From a virus, in IMG/VR virus record IMGVR_UViG_3300025168_000457, positions 1 to 28,882 of that record: DNA of 28,882 bases; one strand, written 5' to 3'. The notes under the pieces are model-generated. The model saw nothing but the letters and a program-made list of their open reading frames with translations, was not told where the DNA came from and searched no databases. Position 1 is the first letter of the stretch, and the number at the start of each line of letters is the position of its first letter. The position numbers and the translations under genes are program-made. Below are positions 5,701 through 21,040 of this stretch, one piece after another.

Positions 5701-6717
5701 ATGGCAGAAGAATCAAAATTAGTGGAAGAAGTTGTGGAAAGTAATGACGCAACAACACTAGAAAGTGCTGAGGGTAAATTTAATCCTTTAGCATTTACAG
5801 AAGATGTTTATAGTGGAGAAGAAGTAAAAACAGAAACGAAAGAAGTAGAAGTAGAGAAAGAAGTAGAAGAGGTTGAGTCTACAGATGAAGAAGCTACAGA
5901 TGATAAATGGGCTTGGGATTCTAAAACAGAAGAAAAAGATGAGAAAAAAGAAGAAGAGTATAATTGGGAAGGAACTGTAGATGAAAAATCTGAAGAAGTT
6001 CCTACAGCTCAAGAATCTTTAAACTGGGCTAAGGTTGGTGAAGAACTTGGAATTGAAATAGAATCTAAAGATCAATTTGTACAAGCATTAAATTCTTTAC
6101 AACAACAAGCACAACAACCAAAAGCTCCAGCTAATGATCAAACAACAGAGCTTAGATCTTATTTGAATTTTTCAGATAGAGATTTAGTATCTGAAGAATT
6201 AAAGGCTGATGGTATTGAGGATTCAGAAATTGAAGAGTCTTTAGATAAACTAGAAGATTCTGGAATGATGAAGATGAAGGCTAAGAGTATTAGAAGGGTT
6301 ATTAATAATGCTATTGATCAACAAACAACTCAAGCTAATAATCAAGCTCAAGAAGCAGCGAAACAAAAGAAACAACAAGCAGAGAACGCAAAGCAAGAAT
6401 TAAAGACACAAATCAAAGACATGAATGAGTTCATGGGTGGGAAAGTAACAAAAAAACAGAAAGAAGAAGTCTATAGATATGCTACAGGCGATATGATGAA
6501 AGAAATATATGCGGATCATGCCAATGTTGCTGATGTTGCTATGTTTATGCTCTATCGTAAGCAGATTGAAAAGATTCTTCGTTCTCAAGGATTGGAAGAC
6601 GGCAAGGCCTCTGTCATGGACAGTATAGTCTCTCCAAACCTTAACACTGGAAAAAGCAAATCTAACTTCAAGGTGAAGTCAGGTGAGTTTGATCCGAAAG
6701 CGTTCATGAGCGAGTAG
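5701..6717 (+). CDS. Probable capsid scaffolding protein
   Basis: 338 aa, between portal and major capsid genes, the classic place for a scaffold. Residues 1-110 are extremely acidic and low-complexity (Glu/Lys/Val runs such as KEVEVEKEVEEVESTDEEATD). Residues 125-155 are Gln/Ala-rich, 200-240 form a Gln/Ala/Lys coiled coil, and the C-terminal part has a folded helical segment (TGDMMKEIYADHANVADVAMF) and ends in a basic-to-neutral tail KSNFKVKSGEFDPKAFMSE. Acidic, coiled-coil, highly helical proteins in this position act as internal scaffolds in T7- and P22-type phages. No protease motif is visible, so release without cleavage is more likely than HK97-type digestion. The DNA of the last 300 nt is clearly richer in GC than the first part of the gene. 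The function rests mainly on position and composition. Confidence 0.65.
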   Translation: MAEESKLVEEVVESNDATTLESAEGKFNPLAFTEDVYSGEEVKTETKEVEVEKEVEEVESTDEEATDDKWAWDSKTEEKDEKKEEEYNWEGTVDEKSEEVPTAQESLNWAKVGEELGIEIESKDQFVQALNSLQQQAQQPKAPANDQTTELRSYLNFSDRDLVSEELKADGIEDSEIEESLDKLEDSGMMKMKAKSIRRVINNAIDQQTTQANNQAQEAAKQKKQQAENAKQELKTQIKDMNEFMGGKVTKKQKEEVYRYATGDMMKEIYADHANVADVAMFMLYRKQIEKILRSQGLEDGKASVMDSIVSPNLNTGKSKSNFKVKSGEFDPKAFMSE

Positions 6718-6781
6718 GTCTATAGAAGTAAGACAATGTCTGCTTAAGGTTGAAAGTTAATTGAGCAAAATAATAATAATG

Positions 6782-6809
6782 TTTAATTAATTTAAAAAAA
6801 ATTTAAAAA
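6782..6809 (+). promoter_or_regulatory. A/T-only translation leader of the major capsid gene
   Basis: The 28 nt immediately before the capsid ATG contain no G or C and end in six A. There is no Shine-Dalgarno motif. Bacteroidota genes typically start without Shine-Dalgarno pairing and prefer A-rich, unstructured leaders, so this is the expected form of a very strong start site for the most abundant protein of the virion. Confidence 0.5.
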
Positions 6810-8390
6810 ATGGCTTCAATTTATACTGGTACTTACGGAAGTAGTACCACTGCCGAGAATGCCTTGAATACTGCACTTATGCAATACCCAGAGATCGCAA
6901 GAACTCTAGTTAAGCAGTATCCTCGTTATTCTGCGACTTATTTGTTAGAGCGTACAGGTCGCTACGCTAAAGAACAAGTTTTAGGAGATAATTCTTTTGA
7001 ATGGAAAGTAATGGGTAGATACAATACTCCTTCTTTTTCAAATGGATGGGCTTCTACAGACGGTGTAACATTTAATGGATCTACAGAAGATGCAGGAGGT
7101 TCTGCTGCAACAGCTGGAAATTATGATAACATGGATGCTGATGGTGATGCGTTCTATTTATCATTTGACGGTGAAGGTATTTATACTACTGCTGGTTCTT
7201 CTTATGCTAGCCATCTTAATAAATGGGATATGGTTCGTTTTCAATCAGGAGCTATTGCGGTTGTTGTAGAAGATCCTATTAATGATGTTGCAAGAGCTGC
7301 TGCTAATGGCGGTTTAGTTACTACTACAGCTTCTCAAGTTGTAAAATTTGAAATGGTTGATGGTACTGCAAATCCTTTATTAACTGCAGATATTGCTGCT
7401 GGTGCTATTGTTGCTTCTATTGGTTCTGCATTCCCTAATGGGTCTGACGGTGCTGATGTAGGTGAAAATACTGTATTGCCTTCTACTCATAGAAACTACT
7501 TAACTACAATGCGTAAGAAGTGTTCTATTACTGGTAAAGGTCTTACTGATGTAACTTGGATTGAGAACAATGGTTCAAAGTTATGGTACTTTACAAAAGA
7601 GCAAATGATGATGGATGAGTTTATGTATCAACAAGAACTACAAAGATGGTATGGAAGAACTTCTATTACTAACGCTGTAGGTTCTTATGCTACTGCTCCA
7701 ATTGCAAGTTCTCTTGGTACGTCTGGTACACAAGCTACTTCAATGGTAACTGGAGACGGTCTATTAGCTCAAATTGATTCTTCTAATCAAGCTTCTTATT
7801 CATTAGGAACTTTAACTGAAGATATCATCACTGAGTTTATTGCTAAATTATCATTAAATGCTACTGCTGCTGAAGGTAACGAGTGGGTTGTATTTACTGG
7901 TACTGAAGGAAGACTTGCTTTCCATAGAGCTATGAAAGATATGCTTGTTGCTCCTTCTGGTGCAATGACTGGTGGTTCTATGTCAGGTGTTAAAGGTGAT
8001 GTATCTCTTGGTGCAAACTTTACTTCTTACTATGCTTTAGGAAACAAAATAACAATGGCTTATTGTCCTGCGTTTGATGATCCTAACTTACACTCTTCTG
8101 CTGGTGGAACTAATTCATTTGGTGACAACAGATTAAAAGAGTCTGCTAAGATGGTATTCCTAGATTTCGGAAAAACTTCTGGTATTTCTAACATTGAGTT
8201 AGTTACTAAAGGTGCTGAAGGAATTAATAGAAGTATGATCAAGAAATATGTAGCTGGAATGGTGAACCCTTATGACCAAAAATCAATGTTGGCTGCTAAC
8301 GCTGATGACAAATTTGAATGCCACGTGCTTTCAGAGTCTGGAATCGTTGTTAGAAACCCATTGTCTTGTGGTATTTTAAGTGCATCTTAA
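6810..8390 (+). CDS. Major capsid protein
   Basis: 526 aa, following the scaffold-like gene. It begins with a helical N-arm (residues 12-50: TAENALNTALMQYPEIARTL, then YSATYLLERTGRYAKE) followed by NSFEWKVMGRYNTPSF, which I recall as typical of capsid proteins from marine Bacteroidota phages. Residues about 90-230 are Gly/Ala/Thr/Asp-rich and beta-like, possibly a surface insertion. The middle contains SILTGKGLT-like (SITGKGLTDVTW) and long helical KEQMMMDEFMYQQELQRWYG, which would fit the spine helix region of an HK97-type fold. The C-terminus is ALGNKITMAY...VFLDFGKT...ECHVLSESGIVVRNPLSCGIL. Size, position, the strong A/T leader and codon choice richer in C/G than neighbouring genes all point to the abundant shell protein. 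No N-terminal cleavage domain is evident. HK97 fold is inferred, not demonstrated. Confidence 0.88.
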   Translation: MASIYTGTYGSSTTAENALNTALMQYPEIARTLVKQYPRYSATYLLERTGRYAKEQVLGDNSFEWKVMGRYNTPSFSNGWASTDGVTFNGSTEDAGGSAATAGNYDNMDADGDAFYLSFDGEGIYTTAGSSYASHLNKWDMVRFQSGAIAVVVEDPINDVARAAANGGLVTTTASQVVKFEMVDGTANPLLTADIAAGAIVASIGSAFPNGSDGADVGENTVLPSTHRNYLTTMRKKCSITGKGLTDVTWIENNGSKLWYFTKEQMMMDEFMYQQELQRWYGRTSITNAVGSYATAPIASSLGTSGTQATSMVTGDGLLAQIDSSNQASYSLGTLTEDIITEFIAKLSLNATAAEGNEWVVFTGTEGRLAFHRAMKDMLVAPSGAMTGGSMSGVKGDVSLGANFTSYYALGNKITMAYCPAFDDPNLHSSAGGTNSFGDNRLKESAKMVFLDFGKTSGISNIELVTKGAEGINRSMIKKYVAGMVNPYDQKSMLAANADDKFECHVLSESGIVVRNPLSCGILSAS

Positions 8391-8415
8391 TTATTAACCT
8401 TTAAAATTTATAAAA

Positions 8416-8718
8416 ATGGCAAATAGATGTTTTTTCTTCGCTGCAGATAGTACAACCGATATGGTTTGTATAGACAGCGATAAAGTGACTGATTTAGAAG
8501 TTTCTGATGCAACAACTGTAAATATTAACTATGGCACAAATGCTGGAGGTAATGGCTCTATCGTTATTGGTGTTACAAGTGGTAAAGCAGATGATGTTGT
8601 AAAGGCAATAGCTAGACTAGTCTTAACTGGAAGAGGTGTAATTACTTTGGCAGATGACGTTACTGGACAATATGGTATTGACGGCATTGAAGAAGTTGAT
8701 TCAATCGCACACTCGTAA
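8416..8718 (+). CDS. Small beta-rich capsid-accessory (decoration-like) protein, 100 aa
   Basis: 100 aa, 25 nt after the capsid stop with an A/T-rich leader (TATTAAC at 8392-8398, then only A/T to ATG apart from two C). The sequence MANRCFFFAADSTTDMVCID, then VTDLEVSDATTVNINYG, then SIVIGVTSGKADDVVKAIARL, reads as a compact beta-sandwich with one helix. Short proteins that open with a '[KR]-[FC]-F-x-F-x-[AT]-D-S' segment and contain 'I-x-[IV]-[TG]-x-G-K' directly downstream of the capsid gene are, in my recollection, frequent in marine phages and are thought to be decoration or accessory head proteins. There is no signal peptide or membrane segment. The exact role is not established. Confidence 0.6.
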   Translation: MANRCFFFAADSTTDMVCIDSDKVTDLEVSDATTVNINYGTNAGGNGSIVIGVTSGKADDVVKAIARLVLTGRGVITLADDVTGQYGIDGIEEVDSIAHS

Positions 8719-12429: not shown

Positions 12430-12799
12430 ATATATATCAATAAAAGATATTTTTAAAAATGTAAAATTAATATTATATAAAAATATTGATTATAAGTTGT
12501 ATTATAGCATAATAAGAAGATTTTTTGAAATACTCGTAAGAGATGTTGTTGAAAGAAATCGTCAAGTTTCTTTACCAGATCAAATGGGATATGTTTATTT
12601 AGATGAAAAACCTCATAAGAGAGCTTTTCATATAAGGGTGGATAATAAAGCAACAAAAGAAACAGGAGAAACAGTATTTTATAAAGTTCCTATTTTAGAT
12701 GATTATTATAAAAAATTAATATGGATAAGACCAAAAAAATATAGAAATTGTAAAATAATGCCTTTAGGCTATTCAAGAAAATTAATAAATAAAAATTAA
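12407..12799 (+). CDS. Small conserved-looking structural-block protein, about 130 aa, GTG start
   Basis: The frame has no ATG near its 5' end; the only standard start is GTG at 12407, inside the end of the preceding gene. The true start could be a non-standard codon near 12434, where the homologous-looking part (ISIKDIFKNVKLILYKNIDY) begins. The product is basic and Tyr/Ile/Lys-rich: an N-terminal helical half (YYSIIRRFFEILVRDVVERN) and a beta half with SLPDQMGYVYLDEKPHKRAFHIRVD. 'L-P-[DN]-x-[MF/L]-G-x-[VI]-Y-[LI]' is seen in small proteins encoded between ring genes of related phages, function unknown to me. Base composition here is extremely AT-rich even for this genome. Placement inside the connector operon, overlapping the upstream ring gene by 23 nt, suggests a tail or neck assembly role. 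Confidence 0.65.
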   Translation: MGHKYKDKYISIKDIFKNVKLILYKNIDYKLYYSIIRRFFEILVRDVVERNRQVSLPDQMGYVYLDEKPHKRAFHIRVDNKATKETGETVFYKVPILDDYYKKLIWIRPKKYRNCKIMPLGYSRKLINKN

Positions 12800-12805
12800 G
12801 AAACT

Positions 12806-13270
12806 ATGGCAGATACGGATTTAAATGTAGCCACACTAACAGTAACAATAACAGAAGCATTAGCTATAGGGCATGATAATGGCTCTTCAGATAGTTTAGA
12901 TTTTGCTCAAACCTATACACATACTTTTGGCAGTATTGTGAACACATCTAAAAGAATTATAAAATTAGCAAATACAAATTTAACTGAAGTGGCTACTTTT
13001 GGGTCTACAACTGCGGATGCTGCTTTTGTAAGAGCTGATGTAAGATATATTAGGGTGACTAATTTAGATGGAACTGATGCGCTACAAGTAGGATTAGATG
13101 ATGAGGATTCTGATGCTGGCTATACATCTGTTGCTGCAAATAGCAGTATTATGTATACAGGAACAACTGTAGAGGGAGGAAATGGAGGATCAACATTAGA
13201 TAATGCTACTGCCTTAAAAGTAAAAGGCGTTGCTAATCATCAATTAGAAGTATTTATTGCTTCTGTATAA
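12806..13270 (+). CDS. Beta-rich virion protein, 154 aa (possible tail/neck or decoration component)
   Basis: 154 aa, 6 nt after the preceding stop. Thr/Ala/Asp-rich, few Lys or aromatic residues, no Cys, no membrane part. It reads LNVATLTVTITEALAIGHDN, then RIIKLANTNLTEVATFGST, then VRYIRVTNLDGTDALQVGLD, and near the end ALKVKGVANHQLEVFIASV. The order 'x-V-x-I-T-E-x-[LV]-x-[IL]-G ... [RK]-I-[IV]-x-[LI] ... [VD]-x-[RY]-[IL]-R-[IV]-T-N-x-D' is common in small phage beta-sandwich virion proteins. Placement between ring genes argues for a neck/tail component, although the fold type is also used on capsid surfaces. The exact role is unresolved. Confidence 0.65.
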   Translation: MADTDLNVATLTVTITEALAIGHDNGSSDSLDFAQTYTHTFGSIVNTSKRIIKLANTNLTEVATFGSTTADAAFVRADVRYIRVTNLDGTDALQVGLDDEDSDAGYTSVAANSSIMYTGTTVEGGNGGSTLDNATALKVKGVANHQLEVFIASV

Positions 13271-14389: not shown

Positions 14390-17300
14390 ATGGCAAAAAA
14401 AAATAAACCTCAAGATCCCCAAACATCAAGTCCAGGAATCTCTAAACCAGAAAGTTTCACTCATGGGATGATTAGTGATCTTGACCCTCACTTTCAATTA
14501 GAAGGAAGTTATGAGGATGGTCAAAACATTAGATTAACTAATTCAACAGGAGATACATTTACAGTAGAAAATATAGAAGGTAATAGTTTATTTGTTGATT
14601 TAGCAAATCCTTTTCCAAATGACAATACTAAAGGAATATCTACAATAGCAGATCAAGGTGTTGGTGCAAATTTTGCAAATGATTATCCAACATTTTTAGA
14701 TAGAGGTCCTAATCCGTTTTTTGGACCTGGAGCTCCAAGACCTGATAATTTAGAATTATCTAATAGATGTTCTATTGTAGGTCATGTTTCCTACGCAAGT
14801 CAATTACTGTTAATGATAGTTGGTAGATTTGAATGGGCTAATACTCCAGGAGGTAATGTTTACCAAGAAACAGATAGAACTATATTTTTAATGGTTGATT
14901 TTGATCATGAATTACAAGTTAAAAAAGTTACAGATTTAAGAGTTTGTTATTCAGCTTCATCACAGCAATATCCAGATTTAAACATGGATTTAGATATTCC
15001 TGTTAGAATAGAGCATCTTATTGAAAACGAAAGTATTTCTAGAATTTATTGGACAGATAATAAAAATCAATTAAGAACATTAAATATAAAGCAATCCAGA
15101 TTAGACGAATTAAGTAAAAGCTCTTTAGATATAACTCCTTTAATGAAGCCATCACAACCTACTCTTGCTAGTACTTTAAGTGGATCTTTGCCTGTAGGTG
15201 TTTATCAGTATTGTTATAAGTATATTTCAGAAAATGGGGGAGAATCAACTTTTTCTCCTTTAAGTAATATTTATCATGTTTCAGATCAAGCGTTTGGTAG
15301 CTCTACATTATATGGGGGTGGGCCAAAAGGTAATTTAGGAACACAAGGATTTCAAATTAATATAAATGATATAGATGTAAGTTTTGAATATATTGAATTA
15401 TATGCATTGCTTTATGAAGAGCAAAATAATGCTCCAAGAGTTTGTGTAGTTTCAAGAAATAAACTTTCTGGTACACAGTCTACATTTCAACATACAGTAT
15501 GGAATAATGAAGTTCCAAATGGTTTAGAAGAAATATTAATAGAGTCAAATACATTTGATGTTTGTAAAGATATTGCAATTAAAGATAATATTTTATTTGC
15601 TGCAAATCTAAGGCAAAAAAGAAATTTTATTTCTGAGAAAGAATGGAATGTTAAAGTTTTAAGATGGAGAATAAAGGATGGTACTTCTTTGCAAGAGTTA
15701 GACGCAATGCTAACAACAAGCGATACAGAAGTTAAGCATTATCAGGGAACAACAGGATCACCTGTAGAGATTGGCAATCAACAAAATTATAATTCAGAGT
15801 ATTGTGGGCACGGACAGTTATTAGGAAGCACTGGATCTATGTATGACGCAACAACCGCAACTTATGATCACCTTAACTATGATGGTAATTTAAATAACCC
15901 TATGTGGACAACATGTGTTGCTAATCAAAGACATGGTTCTGGTGGTACTTCTTCTATAGTTAAAACTAAATTTGAATATAGATTTTTAGCTGATAGAATG
16001 ACATTAGGAGCAGAAAGCTTTGAATATGCACATAATGGCCTAGGTGGTTGTCGTATATCATTTGGAATAGAAGAGAAAATTGCAGATCAATCTCAGAATG
16101 CATATAATTCTCCTTTTATATCTTCAACTAGTATGGGGGACGAAACTATTACTGAATTTTCAAGTATACCTGGCACTCCTGCTGGGCCTTCTGGTGATAC
16201 TACATTTAGAGCATCTATGAATTTAGGTGGATCAAAAGACCCTCATTTAGCTGGAAATAAAAGAGGATATCAAAGGGGTGATATTTATAGATTTGGAGTT
16301 CAAACTTATGATTTAAATGGATCTCCAGGAAATGTATTATGGATTGGAGATATAGAGACTCCACATCAGTATGATGTTTTAAGAATGGTTGATATTAAAA
16401 AAACAAGAGGAGGTGCTGGTGGAGGCTATTCTCCTACTCGTCCTACTAATAATTTAGCTAATTATCAAGCGCAAGGTTACACTACAGGATGGAGTTTAGA
16501 GTCTGGAGATCACTTTATATCTCTTCCGAACATTAAAGACTATAGATTATCTCATATTTATGGGCATACTGTACCTCCTGTAGATGTAGAATGGTTTACT
16601 GATAGACATAATGAGGGTACTCAAAATTTAAAAGCATATATAAAACCTAATGGAAATGAATTAAATTCCGCTATTAAACCAGGCACATCTTCTGATAAAG
16701 CAATAGATGGACGTGTAAAAGCTATGCCAGCATGGAATAACTGGCAAGTTTCTGGGTCGGCTTATGGCATGGATTTAGAAAACTTTGATAAAACACATTA
16801 TTTATATGATTTATATGTAGCTTTTGAATTTATAATACCAGATGAAGTGGTAAAAAAAATATCTGGATTTAGAGTTGTAAGAGCAGAAAGAACAGAAGAG
16901 GATAGAAGAATAATACAACAAGGATTATTAAATCAAACTGCACAATATGGAAACTCTAAATATGGACAAAAATACGGTTATGATACAACTAGATTTTCAA
17001 CAGAAGACAATAAAGCTTTTGACGAAGACCCAATATTTGTAAATCAATGGAATGATCAATCTAGCGGATCAACAGCAGGAGTCCCAACATTACCTGAACA
17101 ACCAGAATATAATGTATATTTAAATGGATACTTAGGGCTTGCTGAAAATTCTCATATGGCATTTTATCATAATACTGCAGGTGATTTTACAAGCGGAACT
17201 TTTAATGGAGTAGCAACTACAGGAGGGAATACAGCAGGAAAAGTTTTTTATTGGCCAGAAAGAGAAGATTCAAAACAATGGGCTGGTGGTGGCGCAGAGG

Positions 17301-20300
17301 ATGCAAGAGGAGAAGGAGATAATTCTCTTTTACATGGAGGCCCAGGAACATATGGAAATCATTTTAGACACTCTGCTTATTTTGGTAGTTATGATAAATT
17401 TAATAATCATACTTCTGCAGGTGATCCAAATGTAACATCTCAAACAGCCACTCACATAAGTGGTAGTATTTTTACATTAGACGCTCCTGATAGTGCATTT
17501 GGAATTAGACCATATGTTTATAGAGAAGGAGATATATTAAGAATAGATGGCTCATTAAAATTATCTGACGAAACAAGGTACAGAACAGCTACATCAACTT
17601 GGGGGCCTAATTATCCTAATTATAGTTTTGCACACAATAGAGGTATGAGTAAAAAATCTCATGATTTAAATGATTCTCCTAATACTTATGGTTGGGGAAT
17701 AAATGGTGGGTACGAAAATTGGAGACCAGAAGCAACTGATCACACACTTAGGCAAGCTTTGTCTTTTTGCACAAGAAAAGATATAGATGATAATTATGCT
17801 GTTCTTATAGGAAAGTATTATTGTTATGATCCATATTTTGGAATAGGAATGGAAATTGATGGCGGTTTATTCGCTGGAGAAAATAAATCTACTGGAGGTA
17901 ATGCTTCCCCAAAAAACCAATATGGATGGCAATTACCTATATCAGCATCTAAAGAAATAACAGATGGTGAAATAGTACCAAATGGATTTTTTAAAGTCTC
18001 TAAAAGAGTTAAGTACAATAAAGTAAGTGGATTTTCAAACAATACTTTAGGATATGTTAAACGTGCTACTATAAATAATACTAACAATCCTGGTCTGGCA
18101 GCTTTTTCAGAAACAGGCACTAGCTATGTCTTTGGAGGTGTAAATTCTAAGATAGCTTATATAAATGATAAAGCTGGTGGATCAGCAAATCAATATGCAG
18201 ATGTAAAAAAACAAGACTATACTTATGATACTGTCTCTACTTTACAAATGGGATTAAGGAGTATTTTAATTGAGGTAGATAATAGATATAGTGAAGTGAG
18301 AAAATTTAATTCTTCTGAAAGTTATTGGGCAAATATAAGTAGTTATCCAGACGCTAATTATAATTGCTGGTTTGCTCCATTAAATCTATCTGCTTTATAT
18401 ACTCACTCTAACTGGAGAGCAGAAGATAAAGACGGTCTATCAGGTACTAGTTCATATTTAGCAGGATATAATAGCCATTTTATTTTCCCATATCTATCAG
18501 CATGGATATCAAACTATGGCGATATAGGTTTATCTAACAATGATCAAGAAGCTCATGATTCTGGTCCAATTCAAAACTTTAGTAATAGAGGAAAAGATTT
18601 AGTTCCTTTTAAATATTTATGTTCTATTGTAAGAAAAACTACACCCTATGGAGGATATAATAAAGGGTCTATTGAAAAAACACGATATATTGCTTGTGGT
18701 AATTTTCATCCTATAGGAGCAAGTTCTGGTAATACACAAGGACATGTTTCTCAAGTATTTGGTGGTGATACATTTGTTAATTTATATTCTCATCAAAAAA
18801 CTTCTACTCCTTACATGAAAAAATCTGCTGCTAGGTGGCAAGTATTTCCAGTAGAATCTTATGTGAATACAGATATGAGAAGTGGATTAACATTAAACTC
18901 ATCAGATACTGTAATAGGTAAAGAAATGAATCAAGCCCCTTACAGTAATGACTGGCTGTACAATAGTGTTTATTCTCAAACAAATAATATTAAATCTGGG
19001 TTAGCGGTAGATGAAGACAAGTTTGATGATAGTTTAAATTTACCTTATGAAATTGCTTATTCTAATACAAAAATATTAGGACAAACATCAGATGCATTTA
19101 GAGTATTCCCTATAAATCAATTCCATGATATGGAAGGGTTATATGGAGAGATTAATAAAATAGTAAATTTTAAGAATGAGATATATATTTTACAAGACAC
19201 TGCTTTTGCAAAACTACTTGTAAATCCTTTATCTATGTTAAGTGACGATTCTGGTACATCTTTATTTACTGGAACAGGAGAAACTGTAGAAAATCATATT
19301 TATATATCAACTAAATATGGAACAAGACATAGATTTAGTGTAGCAATGAGTGAGAAATCACTTTATTTTGTTGATAGTAATTTTGGTAGACTATTTAAAT
19401 ATGATACAGAAAAACTAATATCTTTAGGTGATGCTTTAGGTCAAAGAAATTATTTAAAACAAATCATTAAAGAATGGGAGCAAAGAGCTTATAGAATTTG
19501 CCCCACTGATGGTTCAGTACACCCTACTCTGTATAGTCTGTTAGATAGTGTTGTAAAGCCAGATGGAAGCAGAAACTATCTTTCTGATAATCCATTAAGT
19601 TTTTTAGGTATAACTTCTATATATGATTTTAAAAATAAAGAATTATTAATTACGTTTCATAATTCTTCATGGAATAGTAAAAACGATAAAAGACAAATTT
19701 TTGCAAGAATAGAGGATAATCATTCAACAGATAATACACAATATTCACAGCCAGTAGGTGATTCAGAAACATTAGTATACAGTGAAGCCATTAATGCTTT
19801 TACATCTAAGTATAGTGTTGCACCACCTCAATGGTTAACTGGAGGTCAAGGATCTTTTATACTTTGTCCAGAAAATGAAATTAATGTAAACTCTATATCT
19901 AATTTTAGTTTTACTGATGGATTCTCTGGTAGCAATACTATTTATCCTTATACTTTATCAGGAAGTCATACATCTACTCCTGATGGAACGACACTTCCTA
20001 GTAGAAATAGAAGATGTAATCCATTAAGATTATGGGTATGGGATAAACATATTGAACAAAAGAAAAATAATTTCTTTAGTAAAAAAGATGATGTTTTTAA
20101 ATTACAATCAGGTTTAGTATCTCCTGTAGACCCATCAGCACCAACTACATCTGGATTTGCTTTATTTTGGGAAGGAGTAAAAGAGGTGGCTGATGAAAGT
20201 TATATTGTAAAAATAATTAATAGTGAGGCTGCAAATAGTAAGGTATTTGATAATTGTAAAATAATAATGACCCCTAAGCATGTAGACTTTAGCTTTATAG

Positions 20301-21040
20301 ATTATACAACAGATATTACACACGATACTATCAATGTAAAAAATGTTTTGGATCTTAAGACAACAAATCTTGACGAAACTGAACAATTAGTTATTAATAG
20401 AAGATGGGATTTTAATGCAACAATGAATGGATGGCTTTTTTATTCTGGTGCTGCTAATGGATTTACAGCTCCCGACATATCACCAACTTATATTACTTTA
20501 GCATATAATGGAGATGGTCGCTTTAGAAGTCCAAGTCATGGAGAAGAAATTAATTTACCTGGTAAGTATAATAATATAATCAGAATGAGAGTTAGAAGAA
20601 CTCTTAATGGCAATAACTGGGAGGGTCAAGTATTTTGGCAAGGGCATGATCCTATAAGAAAAGCAAGTGGAGATTATGTTAATTTACCAGAAAGTGCAAC
20701 TAGAACTTCAATAATAGCCGAACCAGGAGGAATAGATAATGAATTTGTAATTATTGAATGGGACATGAGTTCTACTGTAGATTGGAACGATTCTACAATT
20801 CAGAGAATTAGAATAGATTTATCAGGTCCTACTGGAGAATCTACATTTGATGTTGATTGGGTGGAAATAGGAGGTTTAAAAACAGACAAGTATATAGATG
20901 GAATATTAAAAACTTCATTAAGAACTGAAAAAAGTCCACGTAGAACTAGAGGAACGTGGGCAAAAATCAAATATAGTGCCCAAACCACAGATAAATTTAA
21001 TATCTTTGCAATACTTGCAAAATATAGAAAAACCTATTAA
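14390..21040 (+). CDS. Muzzle/nozzle tail protein, 2216 aa, with a C-terminal carbohydrate-binding-like domain
   Basis: 2216 aa, the largest gene in the window, ATG one base after the previous stop. N-terminus: SFTHGMISDLDPHFQLEGSY, then EDGQNIRLTNSTGDTFTVEN and IEGN (residues 22-64), the opening I recall from crAss-like 'tail stabilisation'/muzzle proteins. About 267-295: VGVYQYCYKYISENGGESTF-SPLS, an Ig/FN3-like strand pair also typical there. About 1590-1690: FRVFPINQFHDMEGLYGEIN, QDTAFAKLLVNP, LFTGTGETVENHIYISTKYG and GDALGQRNYL, beta-propeller-like and canonical for the family. The last 35 residues (SPRRTRGTWAKIKYSAQTTD to YRKTY) match the usual terminal strand set. Residues about 2003-2160 are an extra beta-sandwich resembling a carbohydrate-binding module. 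The protein would form the end of the short tail that contacts the host, with internal loops possibly acting in receptor binding. No tail-spike or fibre gene is seen, which increases that likelihood. Confidence 0.82.
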   Translation: MAKKNKPQDPQTSSPGISKPESFTHGMISDLDPHFQLEGSYEDGQNIRLTNSTGDTFTVENIEGNSLFVDLANPFPNDNTKGISTIADQGVGANFANDYPTFLDRGPNPFFGPGAPRPDNLELSNRCSIVGHVSYASQLLLMIVGRFEWANTPGGNVYQETDRTIFLMVDFDHELQVKKVTDLRVCYSASSQQYPDLNMDLDIPVRIEHLIENESISRIYWTDNKNQLRTLNIKQSRLDELSKSSLDITPLMKPSQPTLASTLSGSLPVGVYQYCYKYISENGGESTFSPLSNIYHVSDQAFGSSTLYGGGPKGNLGTQGFQININDIDVSFEYIELYALLYEEQNNAPRVCVVSRNKLSGTQSTFQHTVWNNEVPNGLEEILIESNTFDVCKDIAIKDNILFAANLRQKRNFISEKEWNVKVLRWRIKDGTSLQELDAMLTTSDTEVKHYQGTTGSPVEIGNQQNYNSEYCGHGQLLGSTGSMYDATTATYDHLNYDGNLNNPMWTTCVANQRHGSGGTSSIVKTKFEYRFLADRMTLGAESFEYAHNGLGGCRISFGIEEKIADQSQNAYNSPFISSTSMGDETITEFSSIPGTPAGPSGDTTFRASMNLGGSKDPHLAGNKRGYQRGDIYRFGVQTYDLNGSPGNVLWIGDIETPHQYDVLRMVDIKKTRGGAGGGYSPTRPTNNLANYQAQGYTTGWSLESGDHFISLPNIKDYRLSHIYGHTVPPVDVEWFTDRHNEGTQNLKAYIKPNGNELNSAIKPGTSSDKAIDGRVKAMPAWNNWQVSGSAYGMDLENFDKTHYLYDLYVAFEFIIPDEVVKKISGFRVVRAERTEEDRRIIQQGLLNQTAQYGNSKYGQKYGYDTTRFSTEDNKAFDEDPIFVNQWNDQSSGSTAGVPTLPEQPEYNVYLNGYLGLAENSHMAFYHNTAGDFTSGTFNGVATTGGNTAGKVFYWPEREDSKQWAGGGAEDARGEGDNSLLHGGPGTYGNHFRHSAYFGSYDKFNNHTSAGDPNVTSQTATHISGSIFTLDAPDSAFGIRPYVYREGDILRIDGSLKLSDETRYRTATSTWGPNYPNYSFAHNRGMSKKSHDLNDSPNTYGWGINGGYENWRPEATDHTLRQALSFCTRKDIDDNYAVLIGKYYCYDPYFGIGMEIDGGLFAGENKSTGGNASPKNQYGWQLPISASKEITDGEIVPNGFFKVSKRVKYNKVSGFSNNTLGYVKRATINNTNNPGLAAFSETGTSYVFGGVNSKIAYINDKAGGSANQYADVKKQDYTYDTVSTLQMGLRSILIEVDNRYSEVRKFNSSESYWANISSYPDANYNCWFAPLNLSALYTHSNWRAEDKDGLSGTSSYLAGYNSHFIFPYLSAWISNYGDIGLSNNDQEAHDSGPIQNFSNRGKDLVPFKYLCSIVRKTTPYGGYNKGSIEKTRYIACGNFHPIGASSGNTQGHVSQVFGGDTFVNLYSHQKTSTPYMKKSAARWQVFPVESYVNTDMRSGLTLNSSDTVIGKEMNQAPYSNDWLYNSVYSQTNNIKSGLAVDEDKFDDSLNLPYEIAYSNTKILGQTSDAFRVFPINQFHDMEGLYGEINKIVNFKNEIYILQDTAFAKLLVNPLSMLSDDSGTSLFTGTGETVENHIYISTKYGTRHRFSVAMSEKSLYFVDSNFGRLFKYDTEKLISLGDALGQRNYLKQIIKEWEQRAYRICPTDGSVHPTLYSLLDSVVKPDGSRNYLSDNPLSFLGITSIYDFKNKELLITFHNSSWNSKNDKRQIFARIEDNHSTDNTQYSQPVGDSETLVYSEAINAFTSKYSVAPPQWLTGGQGSFILCPENEINVNSISNFSFTDGFSGSNTIYPYTLSGSHTSTPDGTTLPSRNRRCNPLRLWVWDKHIEQKKNNFFSKKDDVFKLQSGLVSPVDPSAPTTSGFALFWEGVKEVADESYIVKIINSEAANSKVFDNCKIIMTPKHVDFSFIDYTTDITHDTINVKNVLDLKTTNLDETEQLVINRRWDFNATMNGWLFYSGAANGFTAPDISPTYITLAYNGDGRFRSPSHGEEINLPGKYNNIIRMRVRRTLNGNNWEGQVFWQGHDPIRKASGDYVNLPESATRTSIIAEPGGIDNEFVIIEWDMSSTVDWNDSTIQRIRIDLSGPTGESTFDVDWVEIGGLKTDKYIDGILKTSLRTEKSPRRTRGTWAKIKYSAQTTDKFNIFAILAKYRKTY

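Follow-up and report, generated by a model that had tools for sequence, protein, structure and literature searches.

A CBM-type domain inserted in the muzzle protein of a crAss-like phage clade as a candidate accessory adsorption module

Muzzle gene and genomic context

The window, i.e. the whole stretch of viral DNA analyzed here, comprises 28,882 nucleotides (IMG/VR record IMGVR_UViG_3300025168_000457). On its plus strand, an open reading frame (ORF) of 2216 aa at positions 14390..21040 bears the inserted domain described below. Homology assigns this ORF as a crAss-like muzzle (nozzle) protein, in agreement with an earlier note on this DNA. Its closest solved relative was gp44 of phicrAss001 (PDB 7qok; phmmer, E 7.6e-30), with which it aligned in four collinear segments, the homology including the propeller and the C-terminal module; a further match was to the virion structural protein family phrog_28748 (E 1.2e-60). 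In phicrAss001, the muzzle sits at the tail end as a hexamer and has been described as a gate (PMC10172136). By analogy with its homolog gp44, whose place in the solved virion is the tail end, the domain-bearing protein is expected there as well.

Other genes in the window encode the large terminase (phrog_6681), the portal (phrog_6547), and the major head protein (phrog_11589). Since the isolates matched by the terminase were crAss-like, Flavobacterium, and Cellulophaga phages (all with less than 60% identity), a host among the Bacteroidota is likely; a flavobacterial host is plausible.

Fold of the inserted domain

The domain, a predicted CBM-type (galactose-binding-like) beta-sandwich, was located at 20381..20878 on the plus strand (aa 1998-2163) from an AlphaFold2 model, the match to PDB 8gtc chain M, and homology to phage tail-tip domains. 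Its first strand starts at aa 1998 and it ends at aa 2163. The range given previously, 20396-20869, was correct to within a few residues, and the peptides quoted for it all occur, in the order stated, at aa 2003-2162 of the ORF at 14390-21040 (+).

AlphaFold2 was run without templates on 46 related sequences, taken from the window and from fetched loci; roseophage vB_DshS-R4C, the source of 8gtc, was absent from the alignment. The 8gtc structure was released in 2023, later than the collection of the AlphaFold2 training data. In the resulting model, the domain (model residues 66-231, i.e. aa 1998-2163) formed a beta-sandwich with pLDDT mostly between 90 and 98, and the truncated muzzle flanks had pLDDT of 38-66. 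A single-sequence model of aa 1986-2216 was set aside (pLDDT 33).

The modeled sandwich superposed on solved members of the galactose-binding-like/CBM-type fold. The best solved match in VIA-align was 8gtc chain M, residues 485-629 (Z 14.8, rmsd 2.4 A, 139 residues, 23% identity), followed at Z 10-12 over 124-156 residues by xylanase-associated CBMs, CBM15, CBM28, CBM29, CBM22, CBM4, CBM16, and agarase domains. Foldseek likewise placed 8gtc_M at the top (5.9e-6), with CtCBM11 at 3.4e-4, and among viral predicted structures the top named matches were tip attachment protein J and straight fiber proteins. Galactose-binding-like sandwiches also comprise structural members that bind nothing and members that bind proteins; the structural matches included reelin, meprin, laminin, and a complex I assembly factor. 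According to the model, the segment forms an independent CBM-type beta-sandwich, the fold that the earlier note had proposed.

Pfam gave no match of the window domain to any CBM family at the sequence threshold of the family (CBM_11 and CBM_4_9 among the families meant) and only three unrelated weak matches over the 13 domain members; a PHROGs scan with the domain alone found nothing. Because no Pfam CBM family matches, the domain is described here as predicted to work like a CBM, not as a member of a given CBM family. It shares its fold with CtCBM11 and beta-sandwich CBMs of families 4, 15, 16, 22, 28, and 29, but is only 6-16% identical to them, and those CBMs are attached to enzymes, not virions.

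Insertion history

Immediately upstream of the domain, at 20240..20380 (+; aa 1951-1997), alignment with insert-less muzzles identified the first part of the conserved C-terminal nozzle module (KVFDNCKIIMT...); this stretch includes a linker of approximately 20 aa belonging to the insert clade. Downstream, at 20879..21037 (+; aa 2164-2216), lies the conserved muzzle tail, which is present with or without the insert and displays an invariant KxNIFA..AKYR in the alignment, with pairwise identity averaging 78% among members of the insert clade. The residues following the domain (KYxDGxLR...RGTW..KFNIFAILAKYRKTY) are the usual tail of the family, as had been claimed.

In total, 49 muzzle relatives were found. 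The domain is present in close relatives of 2200-2400 aa; distant relatives of about 1880-2010 aa keep both flanks (KxFDN...KYxxGxLR...KFNIFAI.AKYRK) and lack the domain. From KxFD to the protein end, muzzles without the insert have 89-128 aa, compared to 266 in the window muzzle. The insert boundary was set by MAFFT alignment and lengths, because global pairwise alignment scattered the insert-less tails across the insert. In two relatives, the muzzle frame is broken into two ORFs (1702 + 293 aa in L027; 140 + 1875 aa in L033), which may reflect a frameshift, misassembly, or a genuine division of the gene.

In the muzzle tree, which was built without the C-terminal part of the protein and has long deep outgroup branches, the 13 insert-bearing rows grouped as a clade, set apart by a branch with support of 100. 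phicrAss001, phi14:2, and all other insert-less rows were placed outside this clade. The supported clade and its insert-less outgroups indicate a single gain of the domain, in the common ancestor of these crAss-like muzzles, followed by vertical inheritance. That it is an ancestral part lost in other muzzles was rejected, the outgroups being without it. The homolog alignment, in which the segment is absent from other muzzles, bears out its status as an insertion. Searches by tblastn with the window segment retrieved no isolate phage muzzle bearing the domain; with L013 as query, only Klebsiella tail proteins with weak E-values were obtained, again without a domain-bearing isolate muzzle.

Relatives in phage tail-tip proteins

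A profile of the muzzle C-termini had a sole match in the PDB, residues 488-630 of 8gtc_M (E 0.016). This range spans almost exactly residues 482-629 of the R4C megatron (8gtc chain M), which its authors describe as a CtCBM11-like carbohydrate-binding domain that is extra relative to RcGTA (PMC10276861). Consistent with this match, the window insert aligned with a domain of a viral tail protein (L065; BLASTP, 31% identity over 157 columns, E 5e-22), which itself matched 8gtc_M at E 6.9e-16. The ORF of this tail protein (6708-8651) seemingly contains two tandem copies of the domain, 'FEIDWIAIGKYAP' closing the copy directly before the analyzed one.

The profile of the muzzle inserts matched the tail-tip profile at E 1e-29 (hhalign), and it scored all 23 tested non-muzzle members, R4C included, at E <= 3.3e-6. 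As a control, 2000 shuffled sequences were scored; the best reached E 1.9, and all fell below every real relative. The segment is present in about 20 non-muzzle phage tail proteins; families identified in the carrier proteins were Phage_Tail_Tip (PF09327), Ig_J_second, and phrog_31 ('central tail fiber J') or tail fiber families. The domain occurs in isolate phages of, among others, Klebsiella, Enterobacter, Brenneria, Pseudomonas, Alteromonas, Pseudoalteromonas, and Dinoroseobacter. Because some 20 tail proteins share the segment and shuffled sequences score far below the members, the resemblance is not attributable to chance. With similarity across the whole domain, the insert is on sequence grounds homologous to a domain recurring in lambda-J-like and megatron tail-tip and fiber proteins. 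Relatives in host-interacting tail proteins were thus found, one of them solved and named a carbohydrate-binding domain.

A contig scan with tail-tip sequences also revealed the domain on four bacterial contigs; the same scan with muzzle-type inserts as query found no relative. The copies on contigs of Neptuniibacter and Phenylobacterium (L106-L109) may belong to prophages, GTAs, or cellular genes.

Like the muzzle insert, the R4C domain is an extra domain in a tail-end protein, with the same fold and detectable sequence kinship. R4C is a siphophage, however, and the carrier protein there is the megatron of a GTA-type baseplate instead of a podovirus-like muzzle; glycan binding by the R4C domain was itself deduced from its fold. 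The counterparts in lambda-J-like tail tip attachment and tail fiber proteins (for example, of Klebsiella, Brenneria, Alteromonas, and Pseudoalteromonas phages) belong to the same profile family and sit in host-contacting tail proteins with PF09327 or phrog_31. In contrast to them, the muzzle versions form a clade of their own, lack the H-G-x motif region, and are marked by a GKYNN motif and by additional loops or nested inserts. In the domain tree, muzzle and tail-tip versions were two separate groups (100/99).

Sequence variability and nested insertions

At least seven relatives have further insertions inside the domain itself. A segment of about 90 aa (...GKYFFF...VxIWxGxV..W...HGRRxSG.A.GQWQVGD...) was aligned in the first loop of the domain in L006 (at 12492-12869), L010, L014, L015, L018, and L019; it matched no family, PDB entry, or phage sequence. 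In L004, about 150 aa are nested in a different loop (16337-16828). By eye, this insert is CBM_4_9-like (NLIVNGSF...IDNITLQ), and Pfam and PDB sequence searches with it gave nothing.

The inserted domain is among the more variable regions of the muzzle. Mean pairwise identity in the insert clade was 0.44 for the domain and 0.49 for the crass region, compared to 0.68 for the N-terminal part, 0.72 for residues 1400-1880, and 0.78 for the tail.

Position on the muzzle and proposed role

The insert aligned to gp44 at about 1292-1320, beyond the last strongly conserved propeller segment, a region that we infer to be the C-terminal ring-joining module. By alignment, the insertion point seems to fall within the conserved C-terminal nozzle module and not within the tip-facing crass domain, the part proposed to touch the cell in phicrAss001 (PMC10172136); the module may be oriented toward the tail barrel instead of the cell. 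This location also differs from published muzzle length variation, which was attributed to insertions in the crass and IG2 domains (PMC10172136). gp44 of phicrAss001 has the homologous scaffold, including the C-terminal module, but is without the domain.

With a probability of about 0.6, we consider the domain an accessory adsorption module, predicted to bind glycans, that was inserted once and inherited vertically. A CBM-type domain entered what appears to be a loop of the C-terminal nozzle module in a single event at the base of the clade. Because the phicrAss001 muzzle is a hexamer, the tail end would be ringed by six copies, which may bind capsular polysaccharide, exopolysaccharide, or LPS of the host. 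Each site would bind with low affinity, but the six together with high affinity; such weak, multivalent contacts with glycans would keep the adsorbing phage's tail at the cell while contact with the true receptor opens the muzzle gate. The domain probably helps the phage to cling to sugars around the host, most likely as an accessory and not as the sole receptor-binding protein. Glycan binding, ligand, and receptor role are all proposed from fold, kinship, and location.

It is possible, if rather doubtful, that the sandwich is instead a structural decoration which packs on the tail barrel or on neighboring muzzle subunits and stiffens the tail without a ligand. Its location in the C-terminal nozzle module fits such a role too, as does the fact that all complete clade members have kept it by vertical descent, but a domain confined to one clade is not needed for muzzle assembly; it also belongs to the more variable parts of the protein, with loops tolerating nested insertions, and its relatives occur in adhesion devices. 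The stronger reading of the earlier note, in which the muzzle substitutes for a tail spike and the domain, in place of tail fibers or spikes, is the main receptor-binding domain setting host range, appears improbable despite the variable, inserted, CBM-type character of the domain and its nested insertions. Host-range determinants are usually swapped, whereas this domain was inherited vertically across diverged muzzles; fiber genes may lie outside the 28.9 kb fragment; and the domain is positioned away from the tip-facing crass domain (PMC10172136). Because the insert appears in the C-terminal nozzle module, that reading goes too far, and this part of the earlier interpretation was not supported, in contrast to the fold and the insertion. 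Binding of a protein, e.g. an outer-membrane or S-layer protein, is similarly hard to credit, since, in both sequence and fold, the domain is closest to the R4C carbohydrate-binding domain and to polysaccharide-binding CBMs, even though protein-associated domains of the same fold (reelin, meprin MAM, laminin) occur among the structural matches.

More speculatively, the accessory adsorption module may be a tail-tip glycan module of siphophages or GTA-like elements that passed to the nozzle of a crAss-like podovirus. In this tentative scenario, the C-terminal module of the gatekeeper would have become a sixfold adhesin and a docking point for nested modules, and the plug would sense host polysaccharide.

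CBM-type domains are already known in phage tails; what is new is the occurrence of one in the muzzle of crAss-like phages, together with the nested insertions. A literature search for insertion of a CBM-type domain in phage tails found nothing. Carbohydrate-binding-type domains on crAss-like phage proteins are represented by the BACON-domain proteins of crAssphage, which are a different domain family on a different protein (PMC6949934). Little is known of how crAss-like phages first contact their hosts, and the muzzle has mostly been viewed as a gate; a clade-specific muzzle domain of sugar-binding type offers a concrete, separable candidate for adsorption. One adhesive domain would then serve differing tail machines: the siphophage tip, the GTA-like baseplate, and the podovirus-like nozzle.

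Elsewhere in the muzzle, the least conserved 50 residues in the insert clade are aa 1351-1400 (window 18440-18589). Their mean pairwise identity of 19% is below that of the inserted domain, and they may form an exposed loop in the crass region.
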